Below are positions 44,886-57,097 of a stretch of DNA of 64,000 bases, piece by piece (positions within the stretch are counted from its first letter, which is position 1; each line of letters starts with the position of its first letter). Source of the stretch: Nitrospirota bacterium (lineage in GTDB: Bacteria; Nitrospirota; Nitrospiria; SBBL01; JAADHI01); assembly GCA_029261155.1 (NCBI GenBank), contig JAJDBW010000021.1, positions 1 through 64,000 on the forward strand, in the 5' to 3' direction. Both the position numbers and the translations under genes were made by a program. The notes under the pieces are model-generated. The model was given only the letters and a program-made list of their open reading frames with translations. It ran no database searches and was not told the origin of the DNA.

Positions 44886-45479
44886 TTAAGCGGGTATTGT
44901 TCCTAAGCACTCCGTGCAAAGTCGCTTGCCTCCCTTGTCTTTCAAGAGGGCGATGTCGACATGCTCATGGCATTGATCACAAGGCTCGGCTTGGTATTTC
45001 CCGGATTTTGGGGGCGGAGGAAGTGAAACTTCCGAGATTGAAAAAAGCGCCGAATCTGGTGCCGCTAATATCGCATCGATAATTTCTTCTGTCTTTTTCT
45101 GGAGCGCGGCTTTGGCTTCGGGGCTGGCATCCGGCCGCTTTGTCTCCTTTCGGAGTGCTCGGAGCTGGCTGTGATCAAAGGTGTCCCAATACTTACAATA
45201 GGCCCGGACTGCTGTTCCCGTTGCTGTATTTTGAAGGATGTAGACGGGTTTACCGATATGCGTCAAAATGAGATTGCGTTTTCCAAAGGTGCAGCCTGTG
45301 ATTTCTTGAATCGCATCCACGGCGCAGGTTTCGTTTCCAACGAGGGCGACGACTTCTTTCATGTTTTTTAATTGATCGCCCATTTCGCTGACCAGGACTT
45401 TTGCCGCCCGATAGCCGATGGCGATATCCAGACAAAGATGTTGATGGAATGCGACCGCATCTTTAAACTCGCTGCCCAT
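44886..45479 (-). CDS. FmdE/FwdE-domain protein with zinc finger
   Basis: A 197-residue protein with an FmdE-type domain: FHQHLCLDIAIGYRAAKVL and NETCAVDAIQEITGCTFGKRNLI carry the Cys/His metal-binding residues, and a C-terminal zinc ribbon (CDQCHEHVDIALLKDKGGK ... CTEC). FmdE is named for subunit E of formylmethanofuran dehydrogenase, but in bacteria outside methane metabolism such proteins are thought to handle molybdenum/tungsten cofactors or metals; the role is not known. No other methanogenesis-type gene is in view. Confidence 0.82.
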   Translation of the reverse strand: MGSEFKDAVAFHQHLCLDIAIGYRAAKVLVSEMGDQLKNMKEVVALVGNETCAVDAIQEITGCTFGKRNLILTHIGKPVYILQNTATGTAVRAYCKYWDTFDHSQLRALRKETKRPDASPEAKAALQKKTEEIIDAILAAPDSALFSISEVSLPPPPKSGKYQAEPCDQCHEHVDIALLKDKGGKRLCTECLGTIPA

Positions 45480-47402: not shown

Positions 47403-49892
47403 TTAACAGCAGTCCGTTGACGAACAGGAGTCTGCGTCTTCCGAGGCCTTGGCCTTGATGACAGACGCTTCCCCTTGTGTGATCACGAAGGCCTGTTGGT
47501 AAGGTGGCTTTTGTAGTTTCGCCGCCGTATCGGTGCACACCTGCACGGCTTGATTCCGAGGGAAGAGATGGCCTTCCTCATCCACGACGGCTTGCATGGG
47601 GCCCAGGTAGGTTGCCCATTGTCCGACATAGTTGCAGCTCGCCTTTTTTTCGAATTTGTAGCCGCGAATAACTGCGGAGTAAAACCGGTAGCCTTCCACT
47701 TCTTTCCAAAGGGTTTTTTTCAAAATGGAGAGCCCGTAGAAGCCGGCCTGTTCGAGCTTCGCCAGATATTCCTTTTCGGTCAGCGCCCCCGAGACGCATT
47801 CTCCCCAAAGGCGTGGATTGGCCTTCATCCCCTCGGGCAGGGCCTGTTCCGTAATGGTATCCGAGATAACGATGCGCCCGAAATCTTTCAAGACGCGCCA
47901 AATCTCGACGAAGACCTGTTTTTTATCGGGGGAAAGATTGATAACGCAATTCGAGGTGACCAGATCGGTAAATTGGTCCGGCAAGGGGATTTCTTCGAGA
48001 TAGCCCTTTTTGAATTCGACATTGGCATAGCCTAGATTGGCCGCGACGATTTCTCTCGCCGCGTTGGCTTGACGCAGCATCCGATCGGTCATGTCGATGC
48101 CGACGACACGGCCCCTGGGCCCGACTTTTTTGGCGGCGATAAAACAGTCGATGCCACCGCCCGAACCGAGATCAACCATGATTTCACCTGCTTTGAGGCC
48201 GGCCAGATCCACCGGGCTGCCGCAGCCGTAGGAAATTTCCAGGACCTCCTTGGGGATGTGGTCGCTACCGTCCAAGGGATAGCCCTCGGGGCAGCAAAGT
48301 GCGGCCTGTGGGGTTTCGGCCGCATCTCCGTAGAAATCGCTGACGACGCGGCGGGAGTGATCGAGATCGACCGAGAGGACACAGGCCGAACGCGAGAGCG
48401 AAACCGCGAAGCCGCCAAGGGTTTCGACGCCAGGACGGGGGCTGTCTAAAACGGCATCGTCCCCCATGGCGGCAAAAATGACCGGCCGGTCATAGCCGGA
48501 GGCGGTTTTCTGCCGGGCCTTGGCCTCCGCGCGAGAAAATAAAATATCCAATATCCAGGCTTCGTAAAAATCGGAGAAGGGGTCTTCGCCCAAAAATCGA
48601 CCGCTGTATAAGTAGCTGTGTTCAATATCGCCGCCGCCGCAAAGGAATTTTAGATAACAGTCTTTACATTTCGCCTTATTTTGCACGGTCGCTTTACGAA
48701 TCGATTCAGCCAGAGGCGCGTTTTTCCATATGGCCTCAAGACTTTTTTCCAAAGTACTGCCCAAACTCAGTTCAGGAATCCCGGCCAGGGCCGCCGTCGG
48801 GTAGACTTGCGCGTCCGCATACACGCAGAGGGATTCGTAGGCCGCGTTGGAGAGATCGACCTTTAGATGCGATGGTCCCATTAAGCTGCCCATCAACACA
48901 TCGTGATTGTCGAAGCTGAGGCCCAGGGCATCCGTCGCCGCCTTGCTGCGTTTGAAGGCTTCGAGCAAGGCCGCAGTCGAAGGGGGCGCGAGGGTATCCG
49001 ATTCGAGGGCACGGCCTCGGTGATGACTCAGCAGGAGATGGAGATTTTTAATGCCGAGCTTTGAGGCGAGATGAACCATGTCTTCGAGATGCGCGACATT
49101 CGAGCGATTCACGACCGTGGTGAGGGTGGGAGAAAAACCGAGGCCGATGGCTTCTTTGATGCCACGGATGGTCGCGTCGAAGGTTCCGTTTCCCCGCATG
49201 GCATTGTTGATTTCGGCCGTCGGCCCGTCCAGGCTGATTTGGAGCTGCAGGCGGTTTGGATCGCAGAGGGATAATTTCTTGAGGTGTTCTCCACGAAACA
49301 GCATGCCGTTGGTCAGGATAATCAATTCCGCCTTCGGTATCTCAAGGATATGGTCGATGATTTCGAAGATGTCGTCTCTTAAAAAGGGTTCGCCGCCCGT
49401 AATGTAAAAACGCGATGTTCCCAAGGCCTGGGCTTGATCGATGATATTTAACCAAAACGCCGTGTCTCCACCGGGGATGCCGCTGGGCGAAGAGCTGACC
49501 AGGCAATGGCTGCAGCTGAGGTTGCAGGCATTGGTGACATGAAGCCATAGTTCACTCAAGCGGCCGGGGCGGAGGACTTCGGCGCGGCCGGGATAGGGGG
49601 CCTTCGTTTGGGATTGCGTCGAGATGAATTTCTTGCCGAGCGCCTCCTCGAAAAAACTGTGGCAATGCAGCCAGGCCTTGGCCCAGTCCATGCCGTTTTC
49701 TCGGGCGTAGGTTGCAACGAGATCGCCGAAGGTTGTCTTCCCATCCAGCTTGCGAATCAAGTCGGCGCCTTGGGCGTCCGTCGCAATCCAATGGGGCCCT
49801 TCCGGATCGATTAAAAGTCTGAGATTTTGACGAGAGATCTCTCGGTAGAGGGGGACGAAAAATCGACTGTCGTTTGCAATGGCTTCAGTCAT
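47403..49892 (-). CDS. PqqD-like - radical SAM/SPASM - ArsM-type methyltransferase fusion
   Basis: An 829-residue three-part protein. Residues about 30-92 ([20 protein letters not shown] ... [12 protein letters not shown]) have the helix-turn-helix layout of PqqD/RiPP-recognition domains. The radical SAM core has Cys 123, 127 and 130 ([12 protein letters not shown]), the GGEPF motif and an auxiliary-cluster SPASM motif [14 protein letters not shown] near 405-425. The rest is an arsenite S-adenosylmethionine methyltransferase-like module (about 520-800): [51 protein letters not shown] and [12 protein letters not shown] carry the conserved arsenic-binding cysteines. The C-terminus ends CSSTDCC. 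It is divergent from the Crp/Fnr gene with a palindromic operator between them. No arsR or ars operon is nearby, so the arsenic substrate is likely but not shown. Confidence 0.85.
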
Positions 49893-49966: not shown

Positions 49967-49982
49967 TGTAGCCTATCCTACA
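49967..49982. promoter_or_regulatory. Palindromic operator TGTAGC-N4-CCTACA (copy 1)
   Basis: TGTAG-N6-CTACA, a 16-bp inverted repeat, lies in the divergent promoter between the radical SAM/methyltransferase gene and the Crp/Fnr gene. The same palindrome occurs at 50788 before the next plus-strand genes. Its form (TGTAG half-sites with 16-bp span) suits a Crp/Fnr dimer. Confidence 0.65.
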
Positions 49983-50051
49983 TTTGAAAAGGCCGGTGGG
50001 TCAAGAGCGAATCCATTCAAACCGACATTGATTAATACAGTCCCTTCACCT

Positions 50052-50765
50052 ATGATGCCTTGCATGGAAGAAAAAACCAAGCTCTGGTATCTGCAAAAGA
50101 TTAACCTCTTTAAAGAGATGACTCCCGAAGAGATGCGCGAGCTTAACCGTGTGACTCGAATGGAGTCGGTTCGGAAAAAAATGCCGATCTTTTTCCCCGG
50201 CGACCCCAGCCATCAAGTCTATCTCCTAAAGGAGGGTCGGGTAAAAATTAGCCGCATCTCCGAGGAGGGACGGGAGGTGACCCTTGCGATGCTTTCGCCG
50301 GGGGAGATCTTCGGAGAACTCGAAGTCCTTGGCGACACCCCTCGCGATACCTTGGCGGAGGCCCTGGACGACTGCCAGATTTGCGTGGTGAGCAAAGACA
50401 TCTTTCTTGCGATGGTAAGCCGCAAGCCGGAATTTTCCTTTCGGCTGACCAAGCTGATCGGATTTCGCCTCAGAAAGATCGAAAACCGCGTCGAAGATCT
50501 CGTCTTCCGAGACGTTCCGGCCCGCTTGGCCCATCTCTTAATCGACTTGTCCAAAGAGCATGGGGAGGAGGCCCCGGTTGGGATTGCCCTCAAAATTAAG
50601 ATTACTCATCAAGAGATTGCGAACCTCATCGGTTCCATCCGTGAAACCGTGAGCGCCGTGATGGGCGAGTTTAAGCGTGAGGGTTGGATTGCCTTTGAAG
50701 GGCGCCAGATCACCCTGCTTCGTCCCGATCTTCTTCAAAAACGTTCCGAATCCGCTACCCCATAG
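50052..50765 (+). CDS. Crp/Fnr-family transcriptional regulator
   Basis: About 237 residues. A cyclic-nucleotide-binding-type domain (about 15-125: ELNRVTRMESVRKKMPIFFPG, YLLKEGRVKISRISEEGREV, LSPGEIFGELEVLGDTPRDT) and a C-terminal helix-turn-helix (KITHQEIANLIGSIRETVSAVMGEF, with the R-E-T-V recognition helix) are seen. The N-terminal four-Cys cluster of FNR is absent, so it is not an oxygen-sensing Fe-S regulator by that means; it may use another ligand or haem. The start is set at 50052, with TTG 50028 and ATG 50064 as alternatives. Palindromes at 49967 and 50788 flank the gene, so auto-control and control of both neighbours is likely. Confidence 0.88.
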   Translation: MMPCMEEKTKLWYLQKINLFKEMTPEEMRELNRVTRMESVRKKMPIFFPGDPSHQVYLLKEGRVKISRISEEGREVTLAMLSPGEIFGELEVLGDTPRDTLAEALDDCQICVVSKDIFLAMVSRKPEFSFRLTKLIGFRLRKIENRVEDLVFRDVPARLAHLLIDLSKEHGEEAPVGIALKIKITHQEIANLIGSIRETVSAVMGEFKREGWIAFEGRQITLLRPDLLQKRSESATP

Positions 50766-50787: not shown

Positions 50788-50803
50788 TGTAGCCCGCCCT
50801 ACA
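50788..50803. promoter_or_regulatory. Palindromic operator TGTAGC-N4-CCTACA (copy 2)
   Basis: TGTAGCCCGCCCTACA is identical to copy 1 at 13 of 16 positions and perfect in both half-sites. It stands 23 bases after the Crp/Fnr gene and 35 bases before the thioredoxin-like gene. Confidence 0.7.
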
Positions 50804-50837: not shown

Positions 50838-51131
50838 ATGGCTGTCTTAGAATTGTTTCTCGATACGCGTTGTTTCTCCGCGTCCCGGGCGATTGAACTC
50901 GCCCAATGTGTTGTCGCGAACACGGAGGGCCTCCGGCTTTTCATTCGAGATAGGCAAGCGGAGGGTGATCGGGCGCGTTTTGCCGGGGTTTTTATCACCC
51001 CGGCCTTTGTCCTCGACGGCGAGCTTTGTGCCCTTGGGACCCCCTCGCTCGACAGTCTGGTTATGAAAATAAAGAAGCGGTGCGCTGTAAGGAAAGCAGA
51101 ACATCTGAAAAATCCATCCATCGACCAATAA
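50838..51131 (+). CDS. Thioredoxin-like-fold small protein
   Basis: A 97-residue protein resembling glutaredoxin/thioredoxin-like domains: MAVLELFLDTRCFSASRAIELA at the N-terminus, then VFITPAFVLDGELCALGTPSLDS with the cis-Pro (TPAFV). The active site is CFSA, so the second Cys of a CxxC is missing, as in monothiol types. Function unknown. It is preceded by a copy of the Crp/Fnr palindrome and is followed by the His-rich periplasmic gene after 12 bases, so all are probably one regulon. Confidence 0.6.
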   Translation: MAVLELFLDTRCFSASRAIELAQCVVANTEGLRLFIRDRQAEGDRARFAGVFITPAFVLDGELCALGTPSLDSLVMKIKKRCAVRKAEHLKNPSIDQ

Positions 51132-51143
51132 AGGAGGAAGATC

Positions 51144-51671
51144 ATGAATTTGAAATCCTTGATATTTAGTCTTGCCCTCGTGGGCACCATGTTTTTCATG
51201 AATGACACGGCTTTGGCGGATACCGAACACGGCGGACATCAAAAAAATGGCGCCGTTCCAAAGGCGACCTTAGAGGCCATTGGGCCGCATATGTCGCAAT
51301 TTTTAAACTATGAACCCTTCGATCCCCCCTTGAAGAACCATCTTTGGATGAAAACCGATACGGACAAGATGATCTTTTTTCATTTTGCCAAGCCGGTCAG
51401 CGAAAAAGAAAACAAGTTGCTCTTTACCGGCGACGCCGTTAAGGGTCGTTTTTGTGCCGAGGATCAGCCGGCGGGCGGAAAAACGGGCTATGTGCATTTC
51501 CACAGTGGCGCAGTCGCCGAGGGGCACAAACACGGGCATGGGGGCGAAAAGGGGCAAGCGGGCTATTGGTTGCGCCATATTGCCTTGGGAGATTTTGAGA
51601 TGATGAACATTCAATTTCGTCCCGGCGTTGCCCATAATTTTAAAGCTACCTCTGCGCCGAGTTGTAAGTAA
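51144..51671 (+). CDS. Exported His-rich hypothetical protein
   Basis: A 175-residue periplasmic protein with a signal peptide (about 1-25, cleavage after ALA-DTEH). Histidines are clustered at the mature N-terminus (EHGGHQKNG) and in a central HFHSGAVAEGHKHGHGG motif; it also has Cys in FCAEDQPAGGKTGYVHFHS and a conserved GYWLRHIALGDFEMMNIQF. This layout suggests binding of a metal such as Cu or Zn, not a known enzyme. AAAGGAGGAAG precedes the ATG. It follows the thioredoxin-like gene by 12 bases in the likely Crp/Fnr-controlled unit. Confidence 0.65.
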   Translation: MNLKSLIFSLALVGTMFFMNDTALADTEHGGHQKNGAVPKATLEAIGPHMSQFLNYEPFDPPLKNHLWMKTDTDKMIFFHFAKPVSEKENKLLFTGDAVKGRFCAEDQPAGGKTGYVHFHSGAVAEGHKHGHGGEKGQAGYWLRHIALGDFEMMNIQFRPGVAHNFKATSAPSCK

Positions 51672-51984: not shown

Positions 51985-54645
51985 ATGTATAAGTCGATTT
52001 ATATTCCGGTGGACAATTCGGACTATTCGAACACCGCCATCGACATTGGCATGTTGTTGGCAAAACAGTTCGGATCGAAGGTCATTGGAAGTCATGCTTA
52101 TGCCGCCAAGCTTCACGACCGGCGCTTCAAACAGATGGAGGCCGGCCTTCCTGAAGAATACCACGACGAAAACGAACTGGAACGCCAACGAAAAATCCAC
52201 GATTCGCTTATTACCCGCGGACTCGAAATTATTACTGACTCTTACCTCGACATCGTCGATCAAAAAGCAAGCGAGCACAATGTGCCGGTCGAACGCCGAT
52301 CCCTTGAGGGCAAAAACTACAAAGTGCTCGTTGAAGACATCGTGAAAAATGGCTACGACCTGGTGATTTTGGGTGCCCTCGGTGTCGGGGCCGTCAAGGA
52401 AAGCCTCATCGGCAGTGTCACCGAGCGGACCATTCGCCGCGTGCGCAAATCCGATATTTTTATTGTCAAAGAACCGGCTTACGCGATCCCTAACAAGAAA
52501 AAAATCGTTGTGGCCGTGGATGGCAGCCACTACTCCTTCGGCGGCTTTAAAACCGCCCTGGCCCTGGCCAAGGCCTTCGATCTCGAAGTCGACGTCGTCT
52601 CCGCCTTCGATCCCTACTATCACTACGCCGTGTTCAACTCCATTTCAGGCGTTTTAAACGAAGAGGCCGGAAAGGTCTTCCGCTTTAAGGAACAAGAGAA
52701 GCTGCACGAGGAAGTGATCGATTCCGGCTTGGCCAAAATTTACCAATCGCATCTGGAAGTCTGTACCAAACTCGCCGAAGAAGAAAATGTCAAAATCAGC
52801 ACCTCGTTGCTCGACGGCAAGCCCTTTGAAAAAGTTTATCAATATGTCCAACGTGAGCGGCCCTGGCTCCTGGTGGTCGGGCGTATCGGTGTCCACTCCG
52901 ACGAGGAAATGGATGTCGGCAGCAACAGCGAAAATCTCATTCGAAGCGCCCCTTGTAACGTTTTGGTGTCGAACAAAAGCTACATTCCACCCATCGACGC
53001 CATTGCCGAATATACGGTCGCCTGGACCGAAGAGGCTTCCAAAAGGATGGAGAAGGTGCCGATTTTCGCTCGCGGCGTGGCCAAAACGGCGGTCTATCGC
53101 TACGCCATCGAAAAAGGCTTTACGATTATTTCCAATTCGGTGGTCGATAGCGCCATGGGCGACATCCTGCCAAAGTCTGCTATCGATATGATGAAGAATA
53201 TGGGCAAGGAACTCGACGAAAAAGGCATCGACCGAAATAAGATGGTCGCCGACGACGGCGTGGCCGAATCCCTGAAAAGCGGCGGCATCGCCGGGATGAT
53301 GACCCAAATCGTGGTCGACCCGGATGCGGAGCGTGCCGCCGGTTACGACGAAAAGGCCAAGCTCGATTTTTATCTCTGCGGCGGATGCGGCTATACCGCC
53401 AAAGGCAGCCAGCCGGTGAAGTGTCCCATCTGCAGCGCCGAAGGTAGCAAATTCCAATTTATCGACAAGTCGCTCTTCGAATCGGCAGCAAAAGCCGAAG
53501 GCGGTGTGTCTCAGGAAGTCGGCTACGATGGCGTGCCGCTCAATTGGACGGAAGATGCAAAAAATATTCTGCGAAAAGTCCCGGCCGGTTTTGACCGTCG
53601 CCGCACCAAGGCCAAGGTCGAGAAAACGGCGCGTAAGATGGGCTTCCAAACCATTTCGAAGGAATTCGTGGTTCGTATTGTGGATGGCGGGCTCGACTAC
53701 ACCGATCTCGAAAATACGGACGAAGTCACCGCCAAAGAGGAAAGCGCCAAGCCCGGGCCGACCGCACCCACATTTACTTGGAGCGACGAGGCCAAGGCCC
53801 GTCTCGAAAAGGTGCCGGTGGGTTTCATGCGGGACGCCACGCGACAGCATATTGAAAATTATGCCTTTGGAGAGTCGGTCGGTCATATTACCCTCGATAT
53901 TGCCGAAGGTGGCATCCAAAAGGCGACAAAAGAAATGGAAGACGTCATGTCCGGGGCAACGAGTCTCGACGAGATTAAAAAACGGATGGCGGCGATGTCC
54001 TCTGGTGTCTCCCCCGATGTAGCCACGGAGGAAAAATCCTTCCACTTTTGTGGAATGTGCGGACATGTCGTGAATCGGGTTCCCGAAAAATGCCCGGTCT
54101 GCGAGGCCCAGAAATCGCGTTACATGTTAATGCGCGCTGAGATCGACTACTTTATCTGCATGGTCTGCAGCTTGGTGGTCGAGCAGGTGGTGCCGGAACA
54201 TTGTTCCCTCTGCGGCGCCAATGGTGAATATCACATCCAGCTTGAACGAAAAGTCCGCGATCTTGAATCGGCCCTTCCGCAAATCGTGTGGACCGAAGCC
54301 GCATCCACCATTCTCGAAGAAATTCCGGAAGGCTTTATGCGGGAGATGACCCGTTGGCGGATTGAGGCTGATGCACGCAAAAAAGGACTCTCTGAAATCG
54401 ATCCTGAGGTGGTCTCCAGTAAGTATAATCAATGGAGCCAAGTGTCCAGAAAAGTTGAACGGCACTTGCCATGGGGTGATGATGCCTTGCATCGCATGTC
54501 CTTAATTCCTTCTTTCGTGCGCGGCACCGTGGTCAAGGAGATCGAAGCCCATGCCGAAGAGCAAGGCCTGGCGCGTGTGACGGTCGAGATCCTCGATCAG
54601 GTCACCGCACGCTGGACCGAAGCCATGCGCAACCAAGGTTTCTAA
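51985..54645 (+). CDS. Usp2 - PCP_red5 - rubredoxin-like3 fusion protein
   Basis: An 886-residue protein of five kinds of module. Two universal stress domains (about 1-165 and 168-335), each with the nucleotide-loop pattern (GALGVGAVKESLIGSVTER; GRIGVHSDEEMDVGSNSEN). Five PCP_red repeats, of the type W-T/S-x2-A-x2-R/I-L-x2-(I/V)-P-x-F-x-R, start near residues 346, 520, 597, 768 and 828. Three rubredoxin-like zinc ribbons have paired CxxC motifs (CGGCGYTAKGSQPVKCPIC about 466; CGMCGHVVNRVPEKCPVC about 688; CMVCSLVVEQVVPEHCSLC about 725). PCP_red is known from the C-terminus of BchB/ChlB. The whole has no membrane segment, so it is cytoplasmic; I infer an electron- or tetrapyrrole-carrying scaffold. 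A strong GGGGAGG precedes the ATG. Confidence 0.85.
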   Translation: MYKSIYIPVDNSDYSNTAIDIGMLLAKQFGSKVIGSHAYAAKLHDRRFKQMEAGLPEEYHDENELERQRKIHDSLITRGLEIITDSYLDIVDQKASEHNVPVERRSLEGKNYKVLVEDIVKNGYDLVILGALGVGAVKESLIGSVTERTIRRVRKSDIFIVKEPAYAIPNKKKIVVAVDGSHYSFGGFKTALALAKAFDLEVDVVSAFDPYYHYAVFNSISGVLNEEAGKVFRFKEQEKLHEEVIDSGLAKIYQSHLEVCTKLAEEENVKISTSLLDGKPFEKVYQYVQRERPWLLVVGRIGVHSDEEMDVGSNSENLIRSAPCNVLVSNKSYIPPIDAIAEYTVAWTEEASKRMEKVPIFARGVAKTAVYRYAIEKGFTIISNSVVDSAMGDILPKSAIDMMKNMGKELDEKGIDRNKMVADDGVAESLKSGGIAGMMTQIVVDPDAERAAGYDEKAKLDFYLCGGCGYTAKGSQPVKCPICSAEGSKFQFIDKSLFESAAKAEGGVSQEVGYDGVPLNWTEDAKNILRKVPAGFDRRRTKAKVEKTARKMGFQTISKEFVVRIVDGGLDYTDLENTDEVTAKEESAKPGPTAPTFTWSDEAKARLEKVPVGFMRDATRQHIENYAFGESVGHITLDIAEGGIQKATKEMEDVMSGATSLDEIKKRMAAMSSGVSPDVATEEKSFHFCGMCGHVVNRVPEKCPVCEAQKSRYMLMRAEIDYFICMVCSLVVEQVVPEHCSLCGANGEYHIQLERKVRDLESALPQIVWTEAASTILEEIPEGFMREMTRWRIEADARKKGLSEIDPEVVSSKYNQWSQVSRKVERHLPWGDDALHRMSLIPSFVRGTVVKEIEAHAEEQGLARVTVEILDQVTARWTEAMRNQGF

Positions 54646-54682
54646 AACGCCTTTGTTTTAGCCTAAGGATCGGAGTTTCGTC

Positions 54683-56068
54683 ATGGCATACCAAGCCTAT
54701 TCTGTTTCATGGAATCTCACCCAGCGCTGCAATCTGTTTTGCACCCACTGCTACATGAGCGCCTTCCCCAATGCCGATGTCTCCGGAGACTTGACGACGG
54801 AAGAATGCTTCAAGGTGATGGACGACATCGAAAAGGTGAATCCGAACGTCTTCCTGATCCTCACCGGCGGTGAGCCCCTGGTCCGGAAAGACATCTTCGA
54901 TATTGCTGGCTATGGTTCCGACAAAGGCTTTACCTGCGTGCTCGGCACCAATGGGGTGCTCATTGGCAAGACTGAGGCGCGAAAGATGCGCGAGAGTGGT
55001 CTGCAGGGGGCATCCATTAGTCTCGACTCGGTCGATCCGGCCAAGCACGACGAATTCCGCCAGCTCCCGAAATCCTGGGAACACGCCATCCGGGGCATGA
55101 ACTATCTCAGGGAAGAGGGCCTCGATTTTTCCATCCATATGAGCGTGATGGCTTGGAACGTCTCCGAGATTCCGCGCATGATTGACCTTTCCCGCAAGCT
55201 GGGTGCGAAGGTCTTGAACTTTTTCTTTCTCATCCAAACCGGACGAGGAGAAAATATCATCGATATTGAGCCGACCCAGTACCGCGAAATCCTCACCTAC
55301 TTGGCACGGGCACAAGGCGTCGGGAGTGCAGAGCACAAGGTCTCGGGTTCCCTCTTCACCGAATTTGGCGATCCTTGGACCACGCCGGCGGGCGAAAGTC
55401 ACGGACTGATCCTTCGCGCAAAATGCGCACCCCATTTTCGAAAGGTGATCTACGATCTCGATCCCGAATCGCCTCTGCTTAAAAACTATGCTCAGGGCAG
55501 TTGTCCGGCAGGAAAATACTATTGCCGCATTACGCCCTCCGGCGACATCACGCCTTGCCCTTACATGCCGGTGACGGCGGGCAACTTGCGGGAGAAATCC
55601 TTCGACGAAATCTGGCACAACTCGCCCGTGCTCAATGACCTGCGCGATCCGGTCTTGGGCGGACGCTGTGGCGACTGTGAATTCTCGGAGATGTGCGGAG
55701 GCTGCCGCTGTCGGGCCTATGCCTCGTCCGGCGATTATCTGGGTGAAGATACGGCCTGCGATTACGAGCCGGGACAATATGGCGGAGAAAAAATTACCCT
55801 TGGGGCCGAGCAGACCTTTGGCTTGGCGGTTAATTTAACTCTAAACTGGTCGGAGTCCGCACGCGCACGCTTAAAGGGTCTGCCCTCTTTTGCACGTGGC
55901 ATGGTTTCGAGAGGGGTTGAGCAATACGCCAAAGAAAATGATATTGATTGCATCACACCGGAAGTGATGCAGGTGGTTCGTGAACGCGCAGAGACGCGTC
56001 TCGGTCGCCGCTTTAATTTTACGGAATTTAATCGGGATGGGTCTGAAGTCACCCCCACTCGAAAATAA
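54683..56068 (+). CDS. AhbD/NirJ-like radical SAM/SPASM protein with C-terminal PCP_red repeat
   Basis: A 461-residue enzyme. Radical SAM cluster at Cys 16, 20 and 23 (NLTQRCNLFCTHCYM), GGEPL motif, and a SPASM region with CAPHF, CPAGKYYC, CPYMPV and CGDCEFSEMCGGCRC for auxiliary [4Fe-4S] clusters. This order is that of AhbD, NirJ and related haem- or haem d1-modifying enzymes. After about residue 388 a PCP_red repeat ([20 protein letters not shown]) is fused on. Substrate could be a tetrapyrrole or peptide; the PCP_red fusion supports the former, as inference. GGAG is 7 bases before the ATG. It lies 37 bases after the giant Usp gene and 42 bases before the PCP_red-only gene. Confidence 0.85.
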   Translation: MAYQAYSVSWNLTQRCNLFCTHCYMSAFPNADVSGDLTTEECFKVMDDIEKVNPNVFLILTGGEPLVRKDIFDIAGYGSDKGFTCVLGTNGVLIGKTEARKMRESGLQGASISLDSVDPAKHDEFRQLPKSWEHAIRGMNYLREEGLDFSIHMSVMAWNVSEIPRMIDLSRKLGAKVLNFFFLIQTGRGENIIDIEPTQYREILTYLARAQGVGSAEHKVSGSLFTEFGDPWTTPAGESHGLILRAKCAPHFRKVIYDLDPESPLLKNYAQGSCPAGKYYCRITPSGDITPCPYMPVTAGNLREKSFDEIWHNSPVLNDLRDPVLGGRCGDCEFSEMCGGCRCRAYASSGDYLGEDTACDYEPGQYGGEKITLGAEQTFGLAVNLTLNWSESARARLKGLPSFARGMVSRGVEQYAKENDIDCITPEVMQVVRERAETRLGRRFNFTEFNRDGSEVTPTRK

Positions 56069-56110
56069 AATGGGTGCAAGGCAGCCCAATTTGAGTTAAG
56101 GAACGATCCA

Positions 56111-57097
56111 ATGGCAAAACAAGAAGAATCGACGATCACTTGGACGCCCGACGCCGAGGCAAAACTAAAGAAGGCGCCTTTCTTTTTAAGGGGCATGGTG
56201 CGTAAGCTTTCGGAAAAAAAGGCCCGCGAGGCGGGTATTGATCTTATCACCGAAGAGGTTCTCGCGAAGTTTAAAGACAAGATGATGAACCCGATGATCG
56301 CGGAAGGCACTGGCACCTCACATGCGGCGGCGGGGGTGGAAACGCAGCCCTTGGCCTGGACCCGTGAGGCGACGGAGCGACTCGAAACCGTGCCCGAGTT
56401 TATTCGTGGGATGATCAAAAAAATCGCCGAGGAAGTCGCTTTGGAACGCGGTCACCTTGAAGTTGATTTGGCCCTCTTAAAAAAGGCGGAAGCCCTGGGT
56501 GATACCCAGGAAGATGCCTCGCGTCCGGCAATGGCATGGACCGATGCGGCGAAGGTTCGCCTCGAACAAAAAATCGCCGAAGCGCCCGATATGGCGCGTG
56601 ACTTCGTTCGTGACATGTTAAAAAACGATGCCGAAGACCTTGCGCGGGAGATGGGATTAGAGCGGATTGATCTGGCGGCGGCCACGCAAATCTGGGATGC
56701 GCCCAAAAGCGATGTGACTTGGAGCGAAGAAGCGCACAAGCGTTTGATGACCTCACCCGACTTCGTTCGCAGCGGCATCAAAAAGGCGGCGGAGCGCCGC
56801 GCCCGCAAGATGGGGCTGACGACCATCGGTTCGGAGCATTTGACAGGCTTTAGAAACGAGGCCATGATGAAGGCAATGAAACGGCTCCGTTCTTTTGGTT
56901 ATGACGAAATGACCTTCGACGGTTTCGAGGATGCCAAAGAAAAAATCAATCGCCTCAAAGACAATCCCGAAGCCTCAAAACGCTTAGAGGACATTAAGTC
57001 CTATATGGAAAAAAAGGGAGATATCGGCCTGATCGATGAGGAAATGCTCGATCGGATGAAGGATTACTTAAAAGACCCCACCAAGAAAAAGATGTAA
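56111..57097 (+). CDS. Tandem PCP_red-repeat protein
   Basis: A 328-residue protein built of four PCP_red repeats starting near residues 14, 82, 141 and 202 (WTPDAEAKLKKAPFFLRGMV, WTREATERLETVPEFIRGMI, WTDAAKVRLEQ, WSEEAHKRLMTSPDFVRSGI), spaced 59-68 residues apart, and a C-terminal coiled, Lys/Glu-rich tail ending LKDPTKKKM. The third repeat has an insertion of about three residues. There is no other domain and no membrane segment. It is the third gene of the cassette and may serve as a soluble carrier or scaffold. AAGGA lies before the ATG. Confidence 0.8.
   Translation: MAKQEESTITWTPDAEAKLKKAPFFLRGMVRKLSEKKAREAGIDLITEEVLAKFKDKMMNPMIAEGTGTSHAAAGVETQPLAWTREATERLETVPEFIRGMIKKIAEEVALERGHLEVDLALLKKAEALGDTQEDASRPAMAWTDAAKVRLEQKIAEAPDMARDFVRDMLKNDAEDLAREMGLERIDLAAATQIWDAPKSDVTWSEEAHKRLMTSPDFVRSGIKKAAERRARKMGLTTIGSEHLTGFRNEAMMKAMKRLRSFGYDEMTFDGFEDAKEKINRLKDNPEASKRLEDIKSYMEKKGDIGLIDEEMLDRMKDYLKDPTKKKM

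Follow-up and report, generated by a model that had tools for sequence, protein, structure and literature searches.

A recurrent PqqD–radical SAM–ArsM fusion as a likely new variant of organoarsenical biosynthesis

The fusion gene and its locus

The window, that is, the whole stretch of 64,000 nucleotides analysed here, comes from the genome of a Nitrospirota bacterium (3.56 Mb in 90 contigs). On its minus strand, at 47403..49892, lies a gene for a single protein of 829 amino acids, with an ATG start and an uninterrupted reading frame; the plus strand across the same positions contains 15 stops. The protein is a fusion in which a PqqD/RRE-like domain is followed by a radical SAM core, a degenerate SPASM region, an ArsM methyltransferase core, an ArsM C-terminal domain and a Cys-rich tail. 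An initial annotation had named three modules in one chain (PqqD-like, radical SAM/SPASM and ArsM-like), and profiles and structure indeed find all three, in that order.

The Pfam matches of the protein are to Radical_SAM (residues 119–275, E 1.6e-22) and Methyltransf_31 (residues 567–717, E 7.7e-32), with SPASM (PF13186, residues 352–413; 20.6 bits against a cut-off of 21.5) and PqqD (PF05402, residues 27–70; 18.2 bits against a gathering cut-off of 23.4) falling just under. Across the fusion family, SPASM is matched in 35 of 38 members and PqqD, at E<=0.01, in 18 of 38, with a best E of 4.1e-12. A profile of the family's N-terminal part moreover finds the TbiB1 structure 5v1u (E 0.0026), which we take to be an RRE domain. 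The AlphaFold2 model of the fusion, built with 38 sequences, has a mean pLDDT of 85.1 and a pTM of 0.83; its residues 14–458 align with the radical SAM-SPASM maturase 5wgg (Z 30.7, rmsd 4.6, 412 residues aligned), and its residues 529–807 with the ArsM structure 6cx6 (Z 28.8, rmsd 6.6, 276 aligned). From the TbiB1 profile, and from the 5wgg alignment beginning at residue 14, the N-terminal domain (residues about 10–95; 49608..49865, minus strand) has an RRE fold. The concern that profile searches might return neither a PqqD-like domain nor ArsM similarity is therefore removed, both being recovered by profiles and by structure. No NCBIfam model exceeds its own cut-off on the fusion protein.

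The neighbours of the fusion at this locus are housekeeping genes and a divergent Crp/FNR-family regulator gene (50028..50765, plus strand; assigned by Pfam), which also stands beside the fusion at loci L028, L031, L050 and L069. Between the two genes lies a palindrome, TGTAG-N6-CTACA (49967..49982), a second copy of which is found downstream of the regulator (50788..50803). Two copies in the window compare with 0.01 expected, and these are the only two in the 3.56-Mb genome. Genome G131 has one copy adjoining its own fusion; over the ten genomes scanned, the palindrome is absent in five, and the copy in G290 is some 13 kb away from the fusion. From its pattern and position, the palindrome is probably the operator of the Crp-family regulator, which would link the fusion to that regulator. 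A promoter and terminator scan gave weak signals, near chance.

Several other genes in the window deserve mention in their own right. Beyond the regulator, on the plus strand, are a small thioredoxin-like protein (50838..51131; Thioredoxin_3 at 18.9 bits, under the cut-off of 24.8), with a like gene in L028, L031 and L069, and a His-rich, secreted-looking protein of 175 amino acids without a Pfam family (51144..51671), kept in L028 and L031. PCP_red (PF08369), the small protochlorophyllide reductase domain, occurs five times in a Usp protein that also has rubredoxin-like domains, once in a radical SAM/SPASM protein and four times in a protein of 328 amino acids; the three genes are adjacent, on the plus strand at 51985–57097. 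Such repeats are odd in a host that is probably a non-phototroph. On the minus strand, at 44886–45479, an FmdE-like domain and a DksA/TraR-type zinc finger are joined in one protein, the gene for which also follows downstream of the fusion in L028, L029 and L031.

Conserved residues of the two halves

Conservation was read from an alignment of 39 rows, 29 from clade A, to which the window's protein belongs, and 10 from a more distant clade B (families f32 and f39, 37–41% identity); L009, L010, L011, L012, L052, L053, L026 and L016 were left out as copies of other rows or as partial, and a 38-row alignment (A2) additionally omits L043. The radical SAM core (residues about 107–290; 49023..49574, minus strand) has both the PF04055 match and the CxxxCxxC motif by which the superfamily is recognised, and lies within the part aligned with 5wgg. 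The motif itself (C123/C127/C130; 49503..49526, minus strand) is invariant in 39/39 rows and a GGEP stretch is present in 38/38 rows of A2, from which it follows that selection maintains catalysis by the radical half.

The SPASM region (residues 352–440; 48573..48839, minus strand) is of a different character. It has C356, C409, C412 and C418, and at T366, D422 and S440 it departs from clade B and from the split form described below, which have Cys at these positions. Indeed, positions 366 and 422 are Cys in none of the 29 clade-A rows, and Cys 409, 412 and 418 are lost together in eight of the 29, whereas all nine SPASM positions checked are Cys in clade B and in the split enzymes of family f13. 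In other words, the fusion does not have the full set of SPASM Cys residues that presumably serve the auxiliary clusters, and clade A can perform its reaction without SPASM clusters. Since the split form retains all of these residues in the same context, their loss is unnecessary for function.

The ArsM core (residues about 520–745; 47658..48335, minus strand) contains C534, C557, C649 and C699. The Cys set to which the initial annotation had drawn attention, in the stretches CVINLS and ECVSGA, is confirmed, in that C649 (CVINLS) and C699 (ECVSG), together with C534 and C557, are invariant in all 39 aligned relatives. On the assumption that these four residues have the As-binding roles of their counterparts in ArsM and AS3MT, this half of the protein combines the arsenic-binding set with the ArsM fold. 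A sequence search of the PDB likewise returns the arsenic methyltransferases 4fr0/4kw7 (E 1.2e-38, residues 530–807), and the best NCBIfam model is the arsenite methyltransferase NF008823 (236.2 bits, residues 543–730), the cut-off of which, 263, is not reached; the unfused Nitrospira-type ArsM found next to ArsS likewise stays below it, at 233.4 bits. C504 and C753 are present in 39/39 rows. The second of these lies in the ArsM C-terminal domain (residues 746–807; 47472..47657, minus strand) with C786, which is kept in 29/29 clade-A rows, and a similar domain ends the Nitrospira-type ArsM adjoining ArsS. The chain closes with the Cys-rich tail CSSTDCC (47406..47432, minus strand), whose C828 and C829 are present in 29/29 clade-A rows.

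A recurrent family

Full-length relatives of the fusion, at 45–71% identity, occur in many phyla, and chance is thereby excluded. The possibility that the chain is a sequencing or assembly fusion of two genes was rejected on similar grounds, as the same chain recurs in independent genomes of several phyla. Among 295 genomes of the window's phylum, full-length or nearly full-length relatives show about 70% identity in the window's own family, 48–52% in other families of the class and, as clade B, 38–41% in f32 and f39. The fusion of L028 is 71% identical to the window's, and that of L031, from Candidatus Manganitrophaceae, 69–70%, so that the window probably belongs close to this family. A species-level collection yielded 27 fusion loci, two of them partial. 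Fusion loci are found in Nitrospirota, Planctomycetota, Wallbacteria, Elusimicrobia, Acidobacteriota, Omnitrophota and bacterium HR37. In G131 and G175 the gene is interrupted by contig ends, and the pieces were left unjoined.

Family f13 encodes the two halves in separate genes. In its genome G002, the PqqD-radical SAM gene ends at the C504 region, where the radical SAM half of the fusion ends, and is followed by TIGR04282 (202.7 bits); the ArsM gene is grouped with TVP38 and TIGR04283 (270.4 bits). An ArsM tree, in which only five non-fused ArsM proteins were included, joins clade A with the unfused ArsM proteins of f12 and f13 at 98/93 and sets it apart from clade B and from Nitrospira-type ArsM. 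Within clade A, the fusions of the window's class are scattered and interleaved with those of other phyla, such that well-supported branches alone force four changes, L045 being counted as another phylum although its record title names none.

Gene neighbourhood

No pathway gene is adjacent to the fusion at the window locus or in its close family. In unrelated phyla, its neighbours are TIGR04282, TIGR04283, TVP38, DUF547-like, MerA-like and Pit-like genes, the term 'arsenosugar' for the TIGR04282 and TIGR04283 glycosyltransferases being NCBI's label. The gene orders are fusion-TIGR04282-Pit in L033 (TIGR04282 at 201.8 bits, over cut-off), TVP38-MerA-DUF547-fusion in L034, Pit-fusion-TIGR04283-DUF547-TVP38-MerA in L037 (TIGR04283 at 226.1 bits, over cut-off) and fusion-TIGR04282-TVP38-TIGR04283 in L045. 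At least one of these six markers lies near the fusion in 11 of 26 clade-A loci (the window, L028–L051 and L054) and none in the other 15; of the 11, L049 and L050 have one gene each, that of L050 weak, and in L036, L039 and L049 the fusion itself escaped the greedy ORF caller, so that the neighbours there are unreliable. Judged by whole-genome positions, TIGR04283 and the fusion share a contig and are no more than about 4 kb apart in six (G304, G305, G306, G308, G311 and G317) of the 25 fusion genomes that have TIGR04283 over cut-off.

For comparison, 16 stretches of the phylum were fetched for ArsS and its ORF was recognised in 13. ArsM, TIGR04282/04283, TVP38 or a MerA-like or Pit-like gene lies near ArsS in nine of the 13, and no such neighbour in the remaining four (L085, L096, L097 and L098). 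The fusion occupies the same genomic slot in other phyla as does ArsS.

Two further associations were observed. In Vicinamibacterales-type Acidobacteriota, MsrQ directly precedes the fusion at seven loci (L038, L040, L041, L043, L044, L046 and L054), often with MsrP also present, the two being a methionine-sulfoxide repair pair. In the window's own family, TIGR04283 (L079–L083, from the window's genome and its relatives) adjoins not the fusion but a heavy-metal P-type ATPase-like gene, with MreB/MreC-like cell-shape genes nearby in most of these loci, both named by eye.

Distribution relative to ArsS

ArsS (TIGR04167) is found over cut-off in 158 of the 295 phylum genomes and TIGR04283 in 178, including, by hand count, 148 of the 158 with ArsS. 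In the window's class, ArsS is over cut-off in 0/10 genomes with the fusion and in 100/103 of the others. Of the 113 genomes, therefore, none has both genes, 10 have only the fusion, 100 only ArsS and three neither (two of these three also without TIGR04283, the third with a partial ArsS match). This exclusion has a Fisher p of 4.6e-12, not corrected for relatedness; the tables for class, phylum and order were all drawn up by hand, and all their Fisher values ignore relatedness. In families f8 and f10, however, sampled sisters carry ArsS where G131 and G262 carry the fusion, and these ArsS-bearing sisters, together with the separate tree positions of the class's fusions (four changes), speak against the objection from relatedness. 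In the Acidobacteriota order of G306 (120 genomes: 13 with the fusion, 23 with ArsS) the exclusion is absent, 4/13 fusion genomes also having ArsS (p 0.27).

The association with the glycosyltransferase is found in both groups. Among ArsS-less genomes of the phylum, TIGR04283 is present in 13/13 with clade A or the split form as against 17/124 with neither (p 2e-10), clade-B genomes without ArsS being placed in the latter group and the figures coming from a hand count. Among ArsS-less genomes of the Acidobacteriota order, the corresponding figures are 8/9 and 18/88 (p 8e-5). Over a set of 27 genomes, chosen for having the fusion and including the window's own genome and five close relatives, TIGR04283 is over cut-off in 25, TIGR04282 in 20 and ArsS in two; in 14 named control genomes each of the three is over cut-off in one. 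The window's own genome contains both TIGR04282 (202.3 bits) and TIGR04283 (245.6 bits) over cut-off, on contigs other than that of the fusion, and no ArsS over cut-off. For clade B, which has the same two halves, the link to TIGR04283 is weak, and five of its genomes (G140, G158, G162, G178 and G209) also have ArsS over cut-off. The distribution suggests an unrecognised second route by which arsenic is joined to a sugar-like group.

Proposed function

Drawing on domain make-up, Cys conservation, predicted fold, recurrence, neighbourhood and distribution, we consider the fusion to be, on balance, a non-orthologous replacement of ArsS fused to ArsM, which would methylate As(III) and then form a C–As bond. 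The predicted substrate, As(III), would be bound by the ArsM half through C534, C557, C649 and C699 and methylated to a mono- or dimethylated trivalent arsenical. Hand-over to the radical SAM half would follow, perhaps by way of C504, C753 and the CC tail, whereupon the 5'-deoxyadenosyl radical of that half is predicted to add to the arsenic, giving a C–As bond. The expected product would be of a dimethylarsinoyl-adenosyl type, to be processed further by the glycosyltransferases of the pathway. In other words, the fusion would do the work of ArsM and ArsS together, its ArsM half supplying As(III) in methylated form and its radical SAM half forming the next C–As bond. The RRE-like domain may be an inheritance from a peptide-modifying ancestor, with a present role that is structural or in docking. 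Several observations weigh against this reading: ArsS accompanies the fusion in four of 13 genomes of the Acidobacteriota order and in two of the set of 27, the window locus has no adjacent pathway gene, marker genes lie near only 11 of 26 fusion loci, 17 phylum genomes have TIGR04283 with neither ArsS nor the fusion or its split form, and clade B shows no clear link to TIGR04283.

A different C–As bond, whether to a 3-amino-3-carboxypropyl group or by way of some other radical, with the glycosyltransferases shared, seems unlikely but has a precedent in ArsL of arsinothricin synthesis, as described in an excerpt of PMC12159101. Moreover, NF040538, the model for the ArsM of arsinothricin synthesis, gives the ArsM half a higher score (194 bits) than does NF038099, the model for arsenosugar ArsM (156 bits), these being its next NCBIfam models and both scores far below the cut-offs. 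The same preference is seen, however, in the Nitrospira-type ArsM beside ArsS (222 as against 169 bits) and is therefore not diagnostic, and the glycosyltransferases that accompany the fusion, like its substitution for ArsS, indicate the same class of product.

It is improbable that the protein is simply an arsenic-detoxifying methyltransferase, with a radical SAM half that forms no C–As bond and is kept for redox upkeep or for something unrelated. The ArsM half is complete, as such an enzyme would need, and Acr3 is found in 0/5 own-family genomes, a count that makes other arsenic handling plausible though it is in itself uninformative; against this, the invariant CxxxCxxC motif and GGEP stretch indicate catalysis by the radical half, and the presence of the fusion predicts that of TIGR04283.

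The initial annotation had proposed an organoarsenical or a modified peptide as the product, and of these the first is the better supported, whereas the second finds no support. A RiPP-type maturase, whose RRE would hold a leader peptide for modification by the SPASM enzyme and for methylation or arsenic loading by the methyltransferase part, would fit the order of RRE, radical SAM and SPASM domains and the best fold match, the sactipeptide maturase 5wgg. The short precursor ORF that such an enzyme would call for, and which the annotation had suggested looking for, did not appear: within 1 kb of the fusion at 21 loci there is no conserved small ORF (20–110 aa), the candidates all being copies of neighbours, whether antisense, out of frame or cut. 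With the loss of the auxiliary-cluster Cys in clade A this led us to reject peptide modification, which would besides fail to account for the intact set of ArsM Cys or for the arsenosugar neighbours, and we hold it to be very improbable. Another soft element as substrate (Se, Te or Sb) is highly improbable: ArsM-like proteins are known in selenoprotein fusions, to judge from NCBIfam names, but the protein here retains the ArsM fold and all four As-binding Cys, and its neighbours are labelled for arsenosugars.

The ArsM–ArsS-like reading thus describes what is likely a new and recurrent variant of organoarsenical biosynthesis, the exact reaction of which is predicted. Searches of the open-access PMC literature returned no description of a PqqD–radical SAM–ArsM fusion. 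To our knowledge, radical enzymes that form C–As bonds are very few, namely ArsS and ArsL; a fusion combining methyl transfer with a radical step would be a third kind. It would explain why many uncultured bacteria without ArsS retain arsenosugar glycosyltransferases, would widen the likely range of organoarsenical producers to several phyla and would be a case of an RRE/SPASM enzyme acting on a metalloid instead of a peptide. The chances appear about even that adenosylation of arsenic, or a like C–As bond, was invented twice, once as ArsS and once when an RRE/SPASM peptide enzyme turned to arsenic and was fused to ArsM, giving one chain from arsenite to an organoarsenical precursor, the gene of which then spread between phyla and repeatedly displaced ArsS.

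Comparison with known systems

The maturase 5wgg, which we take to be CteB and to have an RRE of its own, is like the fusion in domain order and in fold over residues 14–458. The fusion differs from it in that no precursor peptide was found within 1 kb, in the large loss of auxiliary-cluster Cys and in its C-terminal ArsM.

According to the excerpt of PMC12159101 (citing Cheng 2021 and Yao 2024), the radical SAM enzyme ArsS adenosylates arsenic in arsenosugar synthesis and ArsL transfers an aminocarboxypropyl radical in arsinothricin synthesis. ArsS with its partner ArsM resembles the fusion in gene neighbourhood and in the activity of the partner, and in the window's class a genome has one or the other. 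The fusion is unlike ArsS in having RRE-like and SPASM domains and in being fused to ArsM, and it scores only 56.2 bits with TIGR04167 against a cut-off of 300, over model positions 4–150 of 303. ArsL and its ArsM are likewise a radical SAM enzyme and an ArsM that make C–As bonds (same excerpt), but they are unfused, and NF040542, the model for ArsL, is absent from the best 25 NCBIfam models listed for the fusion.

The fusion of clade B (f32, f39) shares the PqqD-radical SAM-SPASM-ArsM order with clade A, yet it has no ArsM C-terminal domain, keeps the full SPASM Cys, bears an N-terminal CC and occurs also in ArsS-bearing genomes. A B12-binding radical SAM gene (c4) follows it at 8/8 loci (L058–L063, L070 and L073), possibly as part of a separate organoarsenical or lipid pathway. 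Closest to the ArsM half among the relatives sampled, at 52–57% identity, are the stand-alone ArsM proteins of f12 and f13 (L064, L067 and L071), which differ in being unfused, the f12 genomes having ArsS and the f13 genomes a separate PqqD-radical SAM gene.
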